DNA of 26,631 bases from IMG/VR virus record IMGVR_UViG_3300013233_000412, positions 1 to 26,631 of that record; one strand, given 5' to 3'. Within the stretch, counting starts at the first letter, position 1; every line of letters starts with the position of its first letter. The DNA is from a virus. The notes beneath the pieces were generated by a model. The model had not been told where the DNA came from and made no database searches. It saw only the letters and a program-made list of their open reading frames with translations. Below, in pieces: positions 10,537-21,817 of this stretch. The translations under genes were made by a program, and so were the position numbers.

Positions 10537-11558
10537 TGTGCACTCCGCGCTGCCTTGATCGCAGATACGACGTCTGGATTATCCTTTAGCCAGTCCACGG
10601 CGTTGTCTCGGCCCATCCCTATGCTCTTGCCGTCATGCTTGTACCATGCGCCAGCACGCGACATGATCTTCAGCGACACACCTATGTCTAGAACCTCCGA
10701 CGCCCACGCGATTCCCTCACCAAATCGGATCTCGAACTCGCAAGTCTTGAACGGAGGAGCTGTCTTGTTCTTGACGACCTTGACCTTGGTCTTATTGGCG
10801 TAGACGTCATCTCCCTTCTTAAGTGATCCGACGCGAGACACTTCTAATCGCTGAGACGCGTAGAACTTCAGCGCATTCCCTCCGGGAGTAGTCTTAGGAG
10901 ATCCATAGGTGACTCCTATCTTCATGCGGATCTGATTAATGAAGATGATCGAGCAGTTGTTGTTGTTGCAGTGCCCGGTCAGTATGCGGAGTGCCTGGCT
11001 CATGAGGCGGGCCTGGAGCCCTACATGCTGATCCCCTATCTCCCCTTCCAGCTCACGACGAGGTGTAAGTGCTGCGACACTGTCTATGACGATGAGGGAC
11101 ACTGCGCCCGACTTAGCCCAGGACTCTGCTATCTGTAGGGCCTCCTCGCCGTTAGCAGGCTGCGAGAATAAGATCTCCTCTAGATTAACTCCGAGTGCTT
11201 GCGCATACCCCGGATCTAGTGCGTGCTCTGCGTCGATGAACCCGCAGATCTTCCCAGTCTTCTGAGCCTCTGCTATTGCATGAAGGCTCAGAGTCGTCTT
11301 TCCGGAGGATTCCATGCCGAAGATCTCTATAATCCTGCCGCATGGGTAGCCTCTCCCTCCCAGCACCTCGTCTAGTTGGATGCTTCCAGAGGAGATCCAG
11401 TCCTTCACGCCACCCCCTAGCGAGGCGTGTATGCCTCGCAAGGTCCCTGCGGCCTCGTCCCCGAAGAGCTTTCTGCTCTCCACTAGTATCGATTCTATCT
11501 TGTCTGTCCGCGCCTTCTTGACGTCAGCCGCAGTGGGCTTCCTACTTTTCTTTGCCAT
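10533..11558 (-). CDS. recA: RecA recombinase
   Basis: The 341-aa product has all RecA core motifs: Walker A GMESSGKT at 81-88, catalytic Glu111 in [10 protein letters not shown], and Walker B LIVID ending at Asp159. The L1/L2 region has Gln209 in [10 protein letters not shown], and [15 protein letters not shown] follows. RecA forms ATP-dependent filaments on single-stranded DNA and performs strand exchange. Here it would drive phage recombination-dependent replication and repair with the neighbouring nucleases. AAGGAGAA precedes ATG 11558. The C-terminus ends in AIKAARSAQ without the acidic tail typical of cellular RecA, whose tail restrains filament formation. It differs throughout from a standard host gene, which supports a phage-adapted copy. 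Very confident. Confidence 0.97.
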
Positions 11559-11658
11559 CGCACTTCTCCTTTTTGTCTGTCTGCTTCTTTGCGTCCTTCC
11601 GGACCTTCGCCTGTGCTGTCTTCTCTTGTTGTGTGTTTGCTACTCCGTATTTCTCCAT
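11542..11658 (-). CDS. Small Lys-rich ORF (38 aa) between polymerase and recA
   Basis: This short frame starts at ATG 11658, 2 nt after the polymerase stop, with GGAGGGGAAG upstream. It ends at TAG 11542-11544, overlapping the recA start by 17 nt. The peptide is very basic and polar ([20 protein letters not shown]). The good ribosome site and overlap suggest it couples polymerase and recA translation, as other junctions here do. Without it, the roughly 100 nt between the two genes would be unusually long for this operon. It may be a leader or coupling ORF rather than a functional protein. Confidence 0.5.
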
Positions 11659-14689: not shown

Positions 14690-14690
14690 T

Positions 14691-14870
14691 CTATTCCTCC
14701 AAGATGTCTAATACTATGCGTAAAATAAGGGTCGCATCGACGTGAGCATCAGCCTCATCGATGCGACCCTTCCTATACAGTGGCGCGGAAGCAGCCCTAT
14801 GGTATGCACGTTTCTGTGCAATCCATAGGGCTATAAGCGGATCACTCCCGCTTAAAGCTTCTCCTGCCAC
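14691..14870 (-). CDS. Small helical hypothetical protein (59 aa, possibly 71)
   Basis: The gene lies between the candidate SSB gene and the 361-aa gene, and its stop sits 1 nt before the next ATG. The start chosen is GTG 14870, because GGAAG lies 7 nt upstream. An ATG at 14906 in the same frame would give 71 aa but has no ribosome site and a 65-nt overlap. The product is helical and amphipathic (PLIALWIAQKRAYHRAASAP, then ATLILRIVLDILEE). No function can be given. The conserved tight spacing makes it likely to be real. Confidence 0.55.
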   Translation of the reverse strand: MAGEALSGSDPLIALWIAQKRAYHRAASAPLYRKGRIDEADAHVDATLILRIVLDILEE

Positions 14871-16095: not shown

Positions 16096-17109
16096 TTATT
16101 TCATCGCCCGGAGATTCCCGGGCGATTTTGCTTCTGTGATCATTGAGTGCACCTCATGTGCCTCTTCTATATCGTCCGGTGCTGTACCCGCAGGTCTCTC
16201 CTCGTATAGGCACAGGTAGACTCTCCCAGAGCGCCTAAGCTTCTCTGCAACATTAAGTGCTGCACAGGAACCTCGACTATCCGGGTACGCCTTACCTGGC
16301 TCGTTGTCTAGCATGATGTAGTAGGGGCCGCGAAGCCTCCCTAACTGACGGACCTGCATATCCGACAGCGTAGACCCCTGGAGTCCTACTGCATCTGTGA
16401 AGCCCAGTTGCCTGAGCCATAAAGTAGATTTATACCCTTCCGTTATTATCAGAGGTGACTCCTCTAACGACGGTGAGTAGAATCTACGCGCATATATGGA
16501 ATCGAATCCATATAAGTGCTTTCTGTTATCTGGGACGTAGTTGTCCACAACGCCATAAAACTCACCTGCACGTTGATTACGTGTAGGTTTTCTGGCGTCA
16601 TACACCTTATACCGGGGAATTTGCCACTCGGTCGCTGCCCGGCCACTCACGCCAGCGAGCCTACCAAACATGTCCCTAATGGCAAAGGTGATGCGCTGGT
16701 TGGGTATGTCTGTCCCTACGTCGTGCGCGGCTAGTAGATCACCGTCGAATCCCTTAGCGACTAGGCTCTCTGGGACTCCGTCGTATGCTCCTAGTATGTA
16801 CTCAGGTAGTGTGTGCCAAGATGCTTTAGCCGCTCTGCGAGCCTTAGCCACCCTGCTCATCTCCACGCGGACTGGCATGTTCGCCATCGTCCTGTCAACC
16901 TGCTTCCTAGTCATCCCGCACACGTGGTACAGGAATCCTACAAAGGAGCCACTCTCGTCGCACGAGAAGCATATCCAGCCGCCGTAGCTGGTGTTCATCA
17001 TGAACGCTCGCTTAGAGTCGCATAGCGGGCATGTGGCACGTAATCCGTCCGCTCCCGTAGGCTTCACCCTCTCGAGGTAAGGCATCGCCAGGTCTGCTAT
17101 CCTGCTCAT
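16096..17109 (-). CDS. DNA primase (zinc-finger/TOPRIM)
   Basis: The 337-aa product has an N-terminal zinc finger (Cys27, Cys30, Cys47, Cys50; ATCPLCDSKRAF and WICFSC) as in DnaG-type primases. A TOPRIM domain follows, with LIITEGYKSTLWL (Glu224) and YYIMLDNEPGK (Asp268, Glu270). The usual DxD is DxE here. It would lay RNA primers for the phage fork. AGGTGACGC precedes ATG 17109, 3 nt after the helicase stop, so helicase and primase are made in tandem. There is no helicase domain fused, unlike T7 gp4. The start matches the expected N-terminus of the zinc finger. Confident. Confidence 0.92.
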   Translation of the reverse strand: MSRIADLAMPYLERVKPTGADGLRATCPLCDSKRAFMMNTSYGGWICFSCDESGSFVGFLYHVCGMTRKQVDRTMANMPVRVEMSRVAKARRAAKASWHTLPEYILGAYDGVPESLVAKGFDGDLLAAHDVGTDIPNQRITFAIRDMFGRLAGVSGRAATEWQIPRYKVYDARKPTRNQRAGEFYGVVDNYVPDNRKHLYGFDSIYARRFYSPSLEESPLIITEGYKSTLWLRQLGFTDAVGLQGSTLSDMQVRQLGRLRGPYYIMLDNEPGKAYPDSRGSCAALNVAEKLRRSGRVYLCLYEERPAGTAPDDIEEAHEVHSMITEAKSPGNLRAMK

Positions 17110-17112
17110 GCG

Positions 17113-18477
17113 TCACCTCCCGAAGACTACCTTCTTCTCAGATGGCTTCTTGGCGGGGGCGCCAGTAAACGCCTGAGAGGATAGCTTGGTTCCCGGAGGG
17201 GGGCCTTTTGCCTCTTCCTTCGCCTTACTCTCACTCTCCTTGACGTCGTCTAGGGAGTCTACCCAGTCTGCTCCGGCCTCTAAGAAATTCCCGAATCCGT
17301 TGCACAGCCGGCTGTCGAACGTGAACGCCAAGAACTTCTTGGCATCCCTCCCGGCATTAAGGATGAGTGCCGTCCGGTCGTTTGCGTCGTCAGTTATGAC
17401 TCGAAATCCGTAGTCTACTCTCCGGACAATCTTATCAGACCCTGCATACTCCACGGACGACTTACCCTTAGCCTTCACGCCCTCGCGATTGGCATGCCCG
17501 CACGCGATGATGGGTATCTTGAGCTTCATGGCGAGACGCTTAAAACCTCCTGCCACCTTCCCGATTACCTCGTGCTCCCGAGACTTAGACCTCATCTCCA
17601 TCTCGTCCTCGGCAACGCTCATCATGTAGTCATGGATTATAAGTCCCGGCTTCACCTCTTCGACCTTAGCGCGTACGCCGGCCATGCCTCCGTCCATCTC
17701 AGTGACTATGAGATTCTTACGAGAGTAGAGATCGTCCATGACGTCCTCTAGCTTCGTTATACCGTCGGTCGATATCTGGCCTGCCGTCAGCTCCGAGTAT
17801 GGAAGCCCTGCGCGCATGGGATACATGCGCCACGCTATCTCCTCCAGCGTCATCTCACGTGTGAAGAACAGCACGCGAATGCCTAACGACTCAAACCACA
17901 CGGCTAGGTAGCAAAGTAGGAAGGTCTTCCTGCTCTTCTCCCTACCATAAATGTAGATGAAGTTCCCGGGGCAGACTCCCTTAGAATTTTCATTCATGAA
18001 GGGCCACGGCCACGGGTATCCCATCAGTCCGTTATTCTGCCGAAGGAACTCGATGCGCCTAAGGACTTCCGCTTTATCCGAGCCTGCCACTAAGTCAGTG
18101 ACCTTCTCTTGCACCTCCACGGATAGGTTATCGGCCAGAGAGGATAGCTGCTTGCGCGCCTCCCATGGGTCCGCGTCATTCAGGTCTAGGACCTTCTTGA
18201 CTATGTCCTCTATCTCCCCGTACAGGAACCGTGACTTAAGTTCATGCGCGATGGCCTCCATGCCGTCTCCGCCTACATTATGCTCGTATCCGGGGCACAT
18301 AGAGACGAAGTGCTTAAGGCTTGGAACCTCTTGGAATTGCTCATAGTGGTTAGCTATGATGTCCCAGTAGGTCTGGGCTTCTCCTCCGAGGAATCTAGGC
18401 TTTATTCCTAGCCTAATGGCGGATGCCATATCCCGTTCCTCTAGTACGGCGCTTATTAGCGCCAGGTCGTAGTTCAT
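17113..18477 (-). CDS. DnaB-type replicative DNA helicase
   Basis: The 454-aa product has an N-terminal helical domain (about 1-125) as in DnaB, then a RecA-type ATPase. The motif-1 region is FIYIYGREKSRKT (178-185), a P-loop variant with Arg instead of the usual Gly before Lys. Walker B is LIIHDY (Asp283). GHANR (327-331) takes the place of the Q-loop region. The tail after about 400 is Lys/Glu-rich and ends in KKVVFGR. DnaB-type hexamers unwind the fork 5'-3' and recruit primase, which is encoded next. The upstream 132 nt is non-coding with hairpins. A plain AGAGAG serves as ribosome site. Confident of the family. Confidence 0.9.
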   Translation of the reverse strand: MNYDLALISAVLEERDMASAIRLGIKPRFLGGEAQTYWDIIANHYEQFQEVPSLKHFVSMCPGYEHNVGGDGMEAIAHELKSRFLYGEIEDIVKKVLDLNDADPWEARKQLSSLADNLSVEVQEKVTDLVAGSDKAEVLRRIEFLRQNNGLMGYPWPWPFMNENSKGVCPGNFIYIYGREKSRKTFLLCYLAVWFESLGIRVLFFTREMTLEEIAWRMYPMRAGLPYSELTAGQISTDGITKLEDVMDDLYSRKNLIVTEMDGGMAGVRAKVEEVKPGLIIHDYMMSVAEDEMEMRSKSREHEVIGKVAGGFKRLAMKLKIPIIACGHANREGVKAKGKSSVEYAGSDKIVRRVDYGFRVITDDANDRTALILNAGRDAKKFLAFTFDSRLCNGFGNFLEAGADWVDSLDDVKESESKAKEEAKGPPPGTKLSSQAFTGAPAKKPSEKKVVFGR

Positions 18478-18511
18478 GATTTACTCTCTCTGTAATGCAC
18501 AGCTATTCTAG

Positions 18512-18538
18512 GCGTCCGCGGACATGGACCACGGACGC
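18512..18538 (-). other. 10-bp stem, 7-nt loop hairpin in the helicase leader
   Basis: On the minus strand GCGTCCGTGG pairs with CCGCGGACGC (nine Watson-Crick pairs and one G-U) around TCCATGT. It lies 34 nt before the helicase start. No U-tract follows. Confidence 0.65.
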
Positions 18539-18569
18539 ACGGTTGGTGAGTAAGGCAGGCAGCCTAAGC

Positions 18570-18587
18570 GATCCCCTCTCGGAGATC
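18570..18587 (-). other. 7-bp hairpin with GAGA tetraloop
   Basis: On the minus strand GATCTCC pairs with GGGGATC (one U-G) around GAGA, a GNRA-type tetraloop. Such loops are a feature of stable RNA structures; it lies 23 nt after the stop of the 98-aa gene. Confidence 0.55.
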
Positions 18588-18609
18588 AAGTAGAATGCCC
18601 AAACACTGC

Positions 18610-18906
18610 TCAGGGGAAGGTTACGCCATCGCTGGTGACGGACTCCACAGATGTCTCATCATCCAACGGAATCCTCTCGCTCGATAGCATGGACACTACG
18701 TCCTGCTCGATAGACCTGCCGAGCTCTCGTAGGAGTCGCATAGTCTCTGGAGAGGACGGGGTGACGGACATCTCGCCTAGTATGAACTGCTCATGACTTA
18801 CGAGCAGTACTTTACCTAAGAGCTTCGGGTCTCCCAATAGGAGGGAGTCGCACTCCATGCGAACGCAGACCACGCTGGCGAGATTCCCCGCGTCGTAGAC
18901 ATCCAT
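18610..18906 (-). CDS. 98-aa hypothetical protein
   Basis: ATG 18906 overlaps the preceding stop (ATGA). The product starts with a beta-prone segment (MDVYDAGNLASVVCVRMECD), then VLLVSHEQFILGEMSV, followed by a helix (ETMRLLRELGRSIEQDVVSM) and an acidic tail. I recognise no family. The fold looks small and soluble. It is the last gene before the structured non-coding gap, so a leader hairpin could separate the early regulatory genes from the replisome genes. Confidence 0.55.
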   Translation of the reverse strand: MDVYDAGNLASVVCVRMECDSLLLGDPKLLGKVLLVSHEQFILGEMSVTPSSPETMRLLRELGRSIEQDVVSMLSSERIPLDDETSVESVTSDGVTFP

Positions 18907-20210: not shown

Positions 20211-21548
20211 CTATACCATCCTGAATTTGTATCCGAACCCCGTTAGGTGGTTTCGCAGCTTCCTGCACATCCCAACGCATAGCGGGATTCGTCTATCCTC
20301 TATGATTATGACGAGGAGTCCCTGCTTCCCCTCGTGCCGTCTCTGCCCCCTTCCGAGGATTTGTCTGAACATGCCCTCCCGCGCTATCGGCAGAAGGAGT
20401 AGTAGCGTATCTAGGTCACTTCGGTCTAGGCCTTCCTTGGCGATAGACGTGGACGCGAACACTAGATCTTTTCTGTACAGTGCACCATCCCTCTCCTTCC
20501 CGAGAGATCCGTGGATCTTGCTTGCCGTGTCGCCGAACTCCTCTGCGAGGAAGTCTATCTGACCCACTCGACTGGTTAAGGCGAGTATCTTACGATCCTC
20601 TTCGACCAGACCGGCAATGAGATGTATGATCTCCGCGTTCCTCTCCACGTCCTCGGACAGCCACGTGAGTAGCTTCGGGACGTTAGTAGATCCAGTAGAA
20701 TCCGAGAATGACTCCCACTCAGCGCGTGACGGAGAGGTATCTACACGGAAGAATACGACATCCGGGACAATGTCCTGCTCCAAGTTCTCATAGACCACTG
20801 GACCTATGTGGTACTTATACAGGGCATCGAGTCCGTCGTCCCTCTCGTGAGTCGCAGAAAGTCCCCAGCGTGCGCCGCGTCCTACCGCGGCGCACTCCAG
20901 GAACGTAGGCGCCCCTAAGTTGTGGACTTCGTCATAGATCACCAAGCCGAAGTGCTCCTGGAATCCCTCCGGCAAGTCGAACGACTTAGTCCGCAAGGCC
21001 AGTGTCTTCAGCATGGCTATGCACACAGGCTTCTCCCACCTAGCTACGTCCCCTCTGTAGAGTCCTATATCGCCATCAGACAGGTCAGTGAATTGCAGGA
21101 GCCTCTCCTTCCACTGAGTTAGGAGCTCCTCTGTATGAACGACTACGAGTAGCGGGACGCGCATGTCGCACCAAGCCATGATCGAGACGACAGTCTTCCC
21201 CCTACCGCACGCGAGGGACAAGACGCCGTTCACGTTTTCCAGCAGCGCTTGGTGGGCAATCTTCTGGATAGTGCCCCGAGGCTTTGCGTTGCACCTAACG
21301 TGCGTCTTCGGGAAGCTCCCTACAGGCTGGTCGTTTATTTGGAAGGGTAGGGTCTCCCACTCGTCAAACGGTATGTAGTCTCTGGGAACTATGATATGCG
21401 TCTCCGTCTCCTCGAACGCGCGCACGACTGTTCCACTGTTTAAGGTGAATGTCAGGGAACTCTTCACAGAGTCCGTCACCTTGCTCTTCGGAAGCCATAG
21501 GTAGTCTCTCCTATAGCCCTCATCTGTCTTCAATACTGGCAGCTTCAT
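20211..21548 (-). CDS. SF2 DNA helicase (XPB/UvsW-like)
   Basis: ATG 21548 has AGGAGG upstream; longer in-frame starts run into the XRE gene and are rejected. The 445-aa product has helicase motifs in order: Q-like HQALLENVNG (around 99), motif I GRGKT (115-119), motif II DEVH (206-209), motif III SAT (231-233), motif V region FASTSIAKEGLDRSDLD, and motif VI QILGRGQR (396-403). Residues 1-90 form a DNA-recognition-type N-terminal domain. Phage enzymes of this type (T4 UvsW is the known example) migrate branched DNA and help origin-independent replication. With RecA and resolvases here it would process recombination intermediates. Confident of family; specific substrate inferred. Confidence 0.9.
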   Translation of the reverse strand: MKLPVLKTDEGYRRDYLWLPKSKVTDSVKSSLTFTLNSGTVVRAFEETETHIIVPRDYIPFDEWETLPFQINDQPVGSFPKTHVRCNAKPRGTIQKIAHQALLENVNGVLSLACGRGKTVVSIMAWCDMRVPLLVVVHTEELLTQWKERLLQFTDLSDGDIGLYRGDVARWEKPVCIAMLKTLALRTKSFDLPEGFQEHFGLVIYDEVHNLGAPTFLECAAVGRGARWGLSATHERDDGLDALYKYHIGPVVYENLEQDIVPDVVFFRVDTSPSRAEWESFSDSTGSTNVPKLLTWLSEDVERNAEIIHLIAGLVEEDRKILALTSRVGQIDFLAEEFGDTASKIHGSLGKERDGALYRKDLVFASTSIAKEGLDRSDLDTLLLLLPIAREGMFRQILGRGQRRHEGKQGLLVIIIEDRRIPLCVGMCRKLRNHLTGFGYKFRMV

Positions 21549-21556
21549 GTAGCCTC

Positions 21557-21817
21557 CTATTTGCGTGATACGACCACGTAAGGCCTTAACGCCTCCGGTA
21601 TGTTTTCTCTTGCCAGACAGACACGAAGTCTGGCTACTTCGTCCTTGCCTAAGTCCAATGCCTTGGCCATGCGGATCAGCAGGTCGGGGGATGGACGCGA
21701 TAGCGACCTCTCTATGCGCCGCACATGCTCCATGGAGCACCGAGATAGGCTAGCTAACTCGGTCCTGCTCATACTATCACGCTCCCTATAGTATTTGATG
21801 AGATCTCCGACTACCAT
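21557..21817 (-). CDS. XRE-family helix-turn-helix regulator (86 aa)
   Basis: AGGAG lies upstream of ATG 21817, which overlaps the preceding gene by 7 nt. Residues 5-62 are a typical five-helix Cro/C1-type domain: LIKYYRERDSMSRTELASLS, then CSMEHVRRIERSLSRPSPDL as turn and recognition helix, then LLIRMAKALDL. The rest is a short tail. Such proteins bind palindromic operators as dimers. Here the gene is second in the early operon and 460 nt from the divergent promoter region, which it may control, for example to shift early to late expression. I could not find a clear operator palindrome. It is small and Cro-like in size; no dimerisation or protease-sensitive domain is present. Confidence 0.85.
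   Translation of the reverse strand: MVVGDLIKYYRERDSMSRTELASLSRCSMEHVRRIERSLSRPSPDLLIRMAKALDLGKDEVARLRVCLARENIPEALRPYVVVSRK

Follow-up and report, generated by a model that had tools for sequence, protein, structure and literature searches.

The intergenic gap in front of a DnaB-like helicase gene probably holds an internal promoter and a structured 5' leader serving the helicase and primase genes, a reading to which we assign a probability of about 0.7. The window, that is, the whole stretch of DNA that was analysed, is a virus record of 26,631 bases, and the gap occupies positions 18478-18609 on its minus strand. A preliminary description had offered an RNA leader, an RNase III site or an origin element for this gap, and the RNA leader is the option that has gained ground, because 10 of the 11 close phages compared share a promoter whose distance from the start codon hardly varies, together with a leader stem whose position is constrained. 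The element appears to be an ordinary one, a structured leader behind an internal phage promoter, and the phages that carry it form an undescribed group.

The gap measures exactly 132 nt, as first described, and is flanked by two ORFs of the minus strand: the dnaB-like replicative helicase gene (17113-18477; PHROG 19, E 1.7e-41; Pfam DnaB_C, E 1.3e-16) and, on its upstream side, an ORF of 98 aa without a family match (18610-18906). The DNA primase gene follows the helicase gene (16096-17109; PHROG 47, E 1.4e-25), and both gene identities hold. The two belong to a minus-strand replication block that begins with another helicase (20211-21740) and runs through a uracil-DNA-glycosylase-like gene, two ORFs without assignment, the DnaB-like helicase, the primase, two further ORFs without assignment and a family-A DNA polymerase before it ends with a UvsX-like recombinase. 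Immediately before dnaB, a purine-rich GAGAGAG (18484-18490, minus strand; read by eye) is the probable ribosome-binding site. Translation of a short ORF within the gap is unlikely, as only ORFs of 28-32 aa touch it (cut-off at least 20 aa). No tRNA was found in the window or in 14 loci, and Rfam 15 gave nothing above the gathering score in the window, nine close loci or seven distant loci; a permissive Rfam search returned only a chance-level match (E 2.6).

The operon had been called otherwise gap-free, which is nearly right: a second stem-rich stretch, at 14690-14841 (minus strand), looks noncoding and is covered only by an ORF of 71 aa. It contains two strong stems, the second of which (14 bp) is followed by TTATTTTA and is terminator-like, lying between two unassigned genes upstream of the polymerase. 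Elsewhere in the block, a lysine-rich ORF of 38 aa (11542-11658, minus strand) overlaps the UvsX-like recombinase gene at its start.

Relatives were collected by protein searches of IMG/VR that started from the polymerase and were widened with alignments, the last search being represented by the best 80 of 207 matches. A single-sequence search with the helicase found no relative, no DNA similarity to named phages was detected, and the exact sequence of the stem described below as stem 2 had no match in viral contigs. Among GTDB genomes, the helicase search gave no match and the polymerase search a single distant locus (L096), which was left out of the analysis. The close group comprises 11 distinct phages, namely the window and L002, L003, L004, L006, L009, L012, L015, L022, L023 and L026 (L009 and L010 share one gap stretch and count as a single phage), whose helicases are 40-50% identical to that of the window. 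A gap of 113-135 nt precedes dnaB in 10 of these 11 phages, the remaining one, L015, having only 16 nt. In most of them, blastp of the upstream ORFs showed that the ORF adjoining the gap is related to the 98-aa ORF of the window, directly or via other members. L026 lacks the 98-aa ORF, yet keeps a gap of 125 nt; there, the ORF next to the gap has its relative in L003 (34% identity, E 1e-16), one gene further upstream.

Distant relatives, with helicases about 22-30% identical, did not enter the close-group counts. A gap of at least 70 nt before dnaB was present in 19 of 54 distant rows, some of which are near-duplicate contigs, and 7 of the 54 had a match within 140 nt to a looser form of the promoter pattern; no start was found for five rows, and 13 in which the match began after residue 8 were dropped. 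Three distant loci (L070:5090-5185, L094:5128-5224 and L095:4633-4729) carry a palindrome that straddles a conserved GGTTGAC before dnaB; within it, one pair reads A-T, G-C and T-A, respectively, a compensatory change. Six others (L071, L073, L076, L077, L081 and L091) have gaps of 151-185 nt before dnaB whose predicted folds are very stable (-58 to -94 kcal/mol); in several of them TTGAC forms part of a long stem, and none of these gaps gave an Rfam match.

That the gap holds an internal promoter of the host-sigma70 type is well supported by sequence comparison. In the window, the predicted -35 box (TTGATC, 18584-18589, minus strand) and -10 box (TAGGCT, 18561-18566, minus strand) are separated by a 17-nt spacer. 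The corresponding pattern TTGAYN-N17/18-TANNNT, which was formulated after inspection of the gaps and stands as comparative evidence, occurs on the coding strand of all 10 long gaps and on the opposite strand of none, with a chance of 0.0002-0.0142 per shuffled gap; in each gap the boxes fall within the 16-18 nt spacing of sigma70 promoters. Across the close-group loci (n=11, 391,154 bases over both strands), the pattern was matched 17 times, 10 of them in dnaB gaps. The end of the -10 box lies 76-91 nt before the start codon in every one of the 10, the fifth base past the box is a purine in all (G in eight), and the eighth is C in nine. If the predicted promoter fires, transcription would start at 18556, the purine 5 nt past the -10 box, giving a predicted 5' leader at 18478-18556 on the minus strand. 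Within the window alone, the pattern is not unusual (three found vs 3.13 expected), and a standard promoter scan (9-of-12 consensus) did not list the site; L015 has no match within 700 nt.

A stricter form of the pattern, applied to 12 records, was found at nine places, five of which are dnaB gaps; three of the other four were inspected. Two of these sites, in G008 and G009, stand before related genes with 37 and 25 nt, respectively, between the -10 box and the start codon, and the third, in G010, has a strong stem behind it and no clear gene start nearby. The leaders in G008 and G009 would be too short for a stem of the kind considered here, which suggests, from two cases, that a long structured leader is not general for this promoter type. 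The same type (TTGACCCC...CATAGGCT) is seen at L103:1501-1529 and L104:1501-1529, before related unassigned genes whose leaders measure 37 and 25 nt, respectively.

The promoter resembles sigma70/HrdB-type promoters of actinobacteria in both boxes, in their spacing and in the likely purine start 5 nt past the -10 box. Its letters fit promoters of Streptomyces avermitilis, given as TANNNT and BTGACN (PMC8780764), and those of M. tuberculosis, where the centre of TANNNT lies 7-12 bp upstream of the start (PMC3898074). The best named matches of the helicase are Streptomyces phages, at about 25% identity, and 125 of the 181 matching records are Streptomyces phages. WhiB was found in none of 12 records, and four further protein searches for the host gave no match in three cases and mixed hosts with the other helicase.

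A conserved stem at a constrained place in the leader is moderately supported by comparison of predicted folds. The preliminary description had noted two hairpins in the gap, neither with a T-tract after it, and both exist on the coding strand. The one in the leader, stem 2 (18538-18512; GCGTCCGTGG-TCCATGT-CCGCGGACGC), is a 10-bp stem with a 7-nt loop, paired by nine Watson-Crick pairs and one G-T. Read on the coding strand, the gap gives a better RNA fold than its shuffles do (z -2.61, matched by 2 of 200); as opposite-strand RNA it folds no better than shuffles (z -0.72). Stem 2 is unusual against leader shuffles (p 0.006 by energy, 0.023 by pairing) and, when native windows from its own phage serve as the reference, only weakly so (p 0.092 by energy, 0.080 by pairing and 0.162 by total energy). 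When seven leaders were compared with shuffles, the energy p values were 0.006, 0.58, 0.002, 0.018, 0.44, 0.22 and 0.35 (Fisher 0.0004), and when ten were compared with native windows from their own loci, the Fisher p was 0.0011 for stem energy, 0.0017 for total energy and 0.0087 for pairing. Taken singly, three of the ten leaders (L003, L004 and L026) reached p<0.05 by stem energy against native windows, with weak results for L002, L012 and L022.

The position of the stem is also constrained. The best stem of the leader is central in all ten phages, and its 3' end lies 16-33 nt before the start codon; the smallest distance, 16 nt, compares with an average smallest value of 1.4 in shuffles. 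The stem centres scatter by 5.8 nt vs 15.4 in shuffles, and the summed stem energy of the ten leaders is -183.5 vs -134.3 (sd 11.0). None of 300 shuffle sets reached the observed centre scatter, end distance or summed energy. Part of the position effect may stem from the purine-rich ribosome site, since shuffling destroys it and it may by itself keep stems away from the 3' end. Both stem and loop letters differ among the ten leaders, making a sequence-specific binding protein unlikely; the leaders are too divergent to align for a pair-by-pair count of compensatory changes.

The other hairpin, stem 1 (18587-18570, coding strand; GATCTCC-GAGA-GGGGATC), overlaps the -35 box and spacer of the predicted promoter and for this reason is not taken as a separate RNA element; as such an element it is weakly supported. 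By pairing it is ordinary (p 0.565), and with its outer arms it is borderline (p 0.048). The overlap itself would suit an operator, at which a repressor of the dnaB-gap promoter would bind, and the upstream halves of the gaps fold somewhat better than expected (combined z -1.84 over 10 phages; p 0.03-0.05 for the window, L023 and L026), with the distant loci L070, L094 and L095 holding their palindrome around TTGAC in the same slot before dnaB. Against an operator stand the ordinary pairing of stem 1 and its absence from L022, which keeps TTGATC/TAAGCT and lacks the palindrome. We consider an operator possible in the window phage and, on balance, improbable.

Several other explanations of the leader stem have to be weighed against a promoter with a structured leader. 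Only the promoter might matter, the stems being incidental in a fairly G+C-rich leader whose sole constraint is an open ribosome site. Seven of the ten stems are indeed not unusual singly against native windows, and a study of M. smegmatis saw no link between leader structure and the half-life of mRNA (PMC11728522); however, the summed energy and the position exceed all 300 shuffle sets, and the combined p against native windows is 0.0011, which leaves incidental stems a real but doubtful prospect. Alternatively, the stem, sitting as it does between promoter and gene, might act as an attenuator or terminator that halts part of the transcripts before dnaB. The eight bases after it contain five T, the loose threshold of the scan, in L003, L006 and L026, but fewer in the other seven (two in the window), and never more than three T stand in a row, so that no G+C-rich stem followed by a T-tract, as in an intrinsic terminator, was found; attenuation thus seems unlikely. 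Cleavage by RNase III or another RNase, which would separate the dnaB part of the operon mRNA from that of the 98-aa ORF, is still less probable. A transcript entering from upstream would carry the full gap folded into two stems, which fits such sites, but stem 1 is not conserved, the element is kept in L026 without the 98-aa ORF, and a stem of 10 bp is short for RNase III.

An origin of replication finds the least favour. The gap adjoins the helicase and primase genes, and a promoter with a stem could start a primer; against this, no direct repeats occur in 18400-18700, G+C is 0.55 like the rest, the stem letters are not kept among relatives, and no repeats, A+T-rich stretch or skew turn were found at the gap. 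The cumulative GC skew, proposed earlier as a check, turns near 22 kb, where gene direction switches. The origin element of the preliminary description is thus unsupported and very improbable.

Known structured leaders offer partial parallels. The put leader RNAs of phage HK022 act in antitermination through two adjacent stems of constrained sequence; they are like the dnaB leaders in placing stem-loops directly after a phage promoter, and differ from them in that the letters of the dnaB leader stem are free. In E. coli, 5' stems can stabilise mRNA, for example in the ompA leader, which has a similar length and likewise carries its stem upstream of a free ribosome site. The esxB leader of M. 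smegmatis shares these likenesses; it is 70 nt long and forms two hairpins that do not stabilise the mRNA, and removal of both raised transcript and protein levels (PMC11728522). The phage leaders differ from those of ompA and esxB in having one main stem, with letters that differ in every phage. Given the esxB result, a function cannot simply be transferred from such leaders to the phage ones. No comparable phage leader was recognised in the literature as represented in search listings.

Under the promoter-and-leader reading, a sigma70-type promoter (TTGAYN, 17-18 nt, TANNNT) would provide a separate transcript for helicase, primase and the genes that follow within the replication operon. This transcript would begin with a 5' leader of roughly 72-87 nt, whose single main stem-loop, ending within the stated distance of the start codon, would leave the ribosome-binding site free. 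The stem would keep the leader folded away from the open ribosome site and in this way set the expression level. We infer that its role is one of structure only, setting a level rather than serving as a sequence-specific protein site or stabilising the mRNA; the choice of level-setting over stabilisation rests on the M. smegmatis leader, whose two hairpins gave no stabilisation. A bolder version, in which the leader is a structure-only control element common to a group of uncultivated phages, such as an antitermination or helicase-dosage switch kept in shape and in distance to the ribosome site with its letters free, is rather unlikely. Since L070, L094, L095 and others among the distant relatives carry larger palindromes around TTGAC before dnaB, replisome expression may have long been controlled at this slot.

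If the promoter and structured leader are real, this phage group would regulate helicase and primase independently of the genes that precede them in the block. It would do so with a single conserved promoter and a leader in which shape is retained more than letters. The gap would then be an exact, testable site for such control, and its promoter consensus may hint at the host group of these phages.
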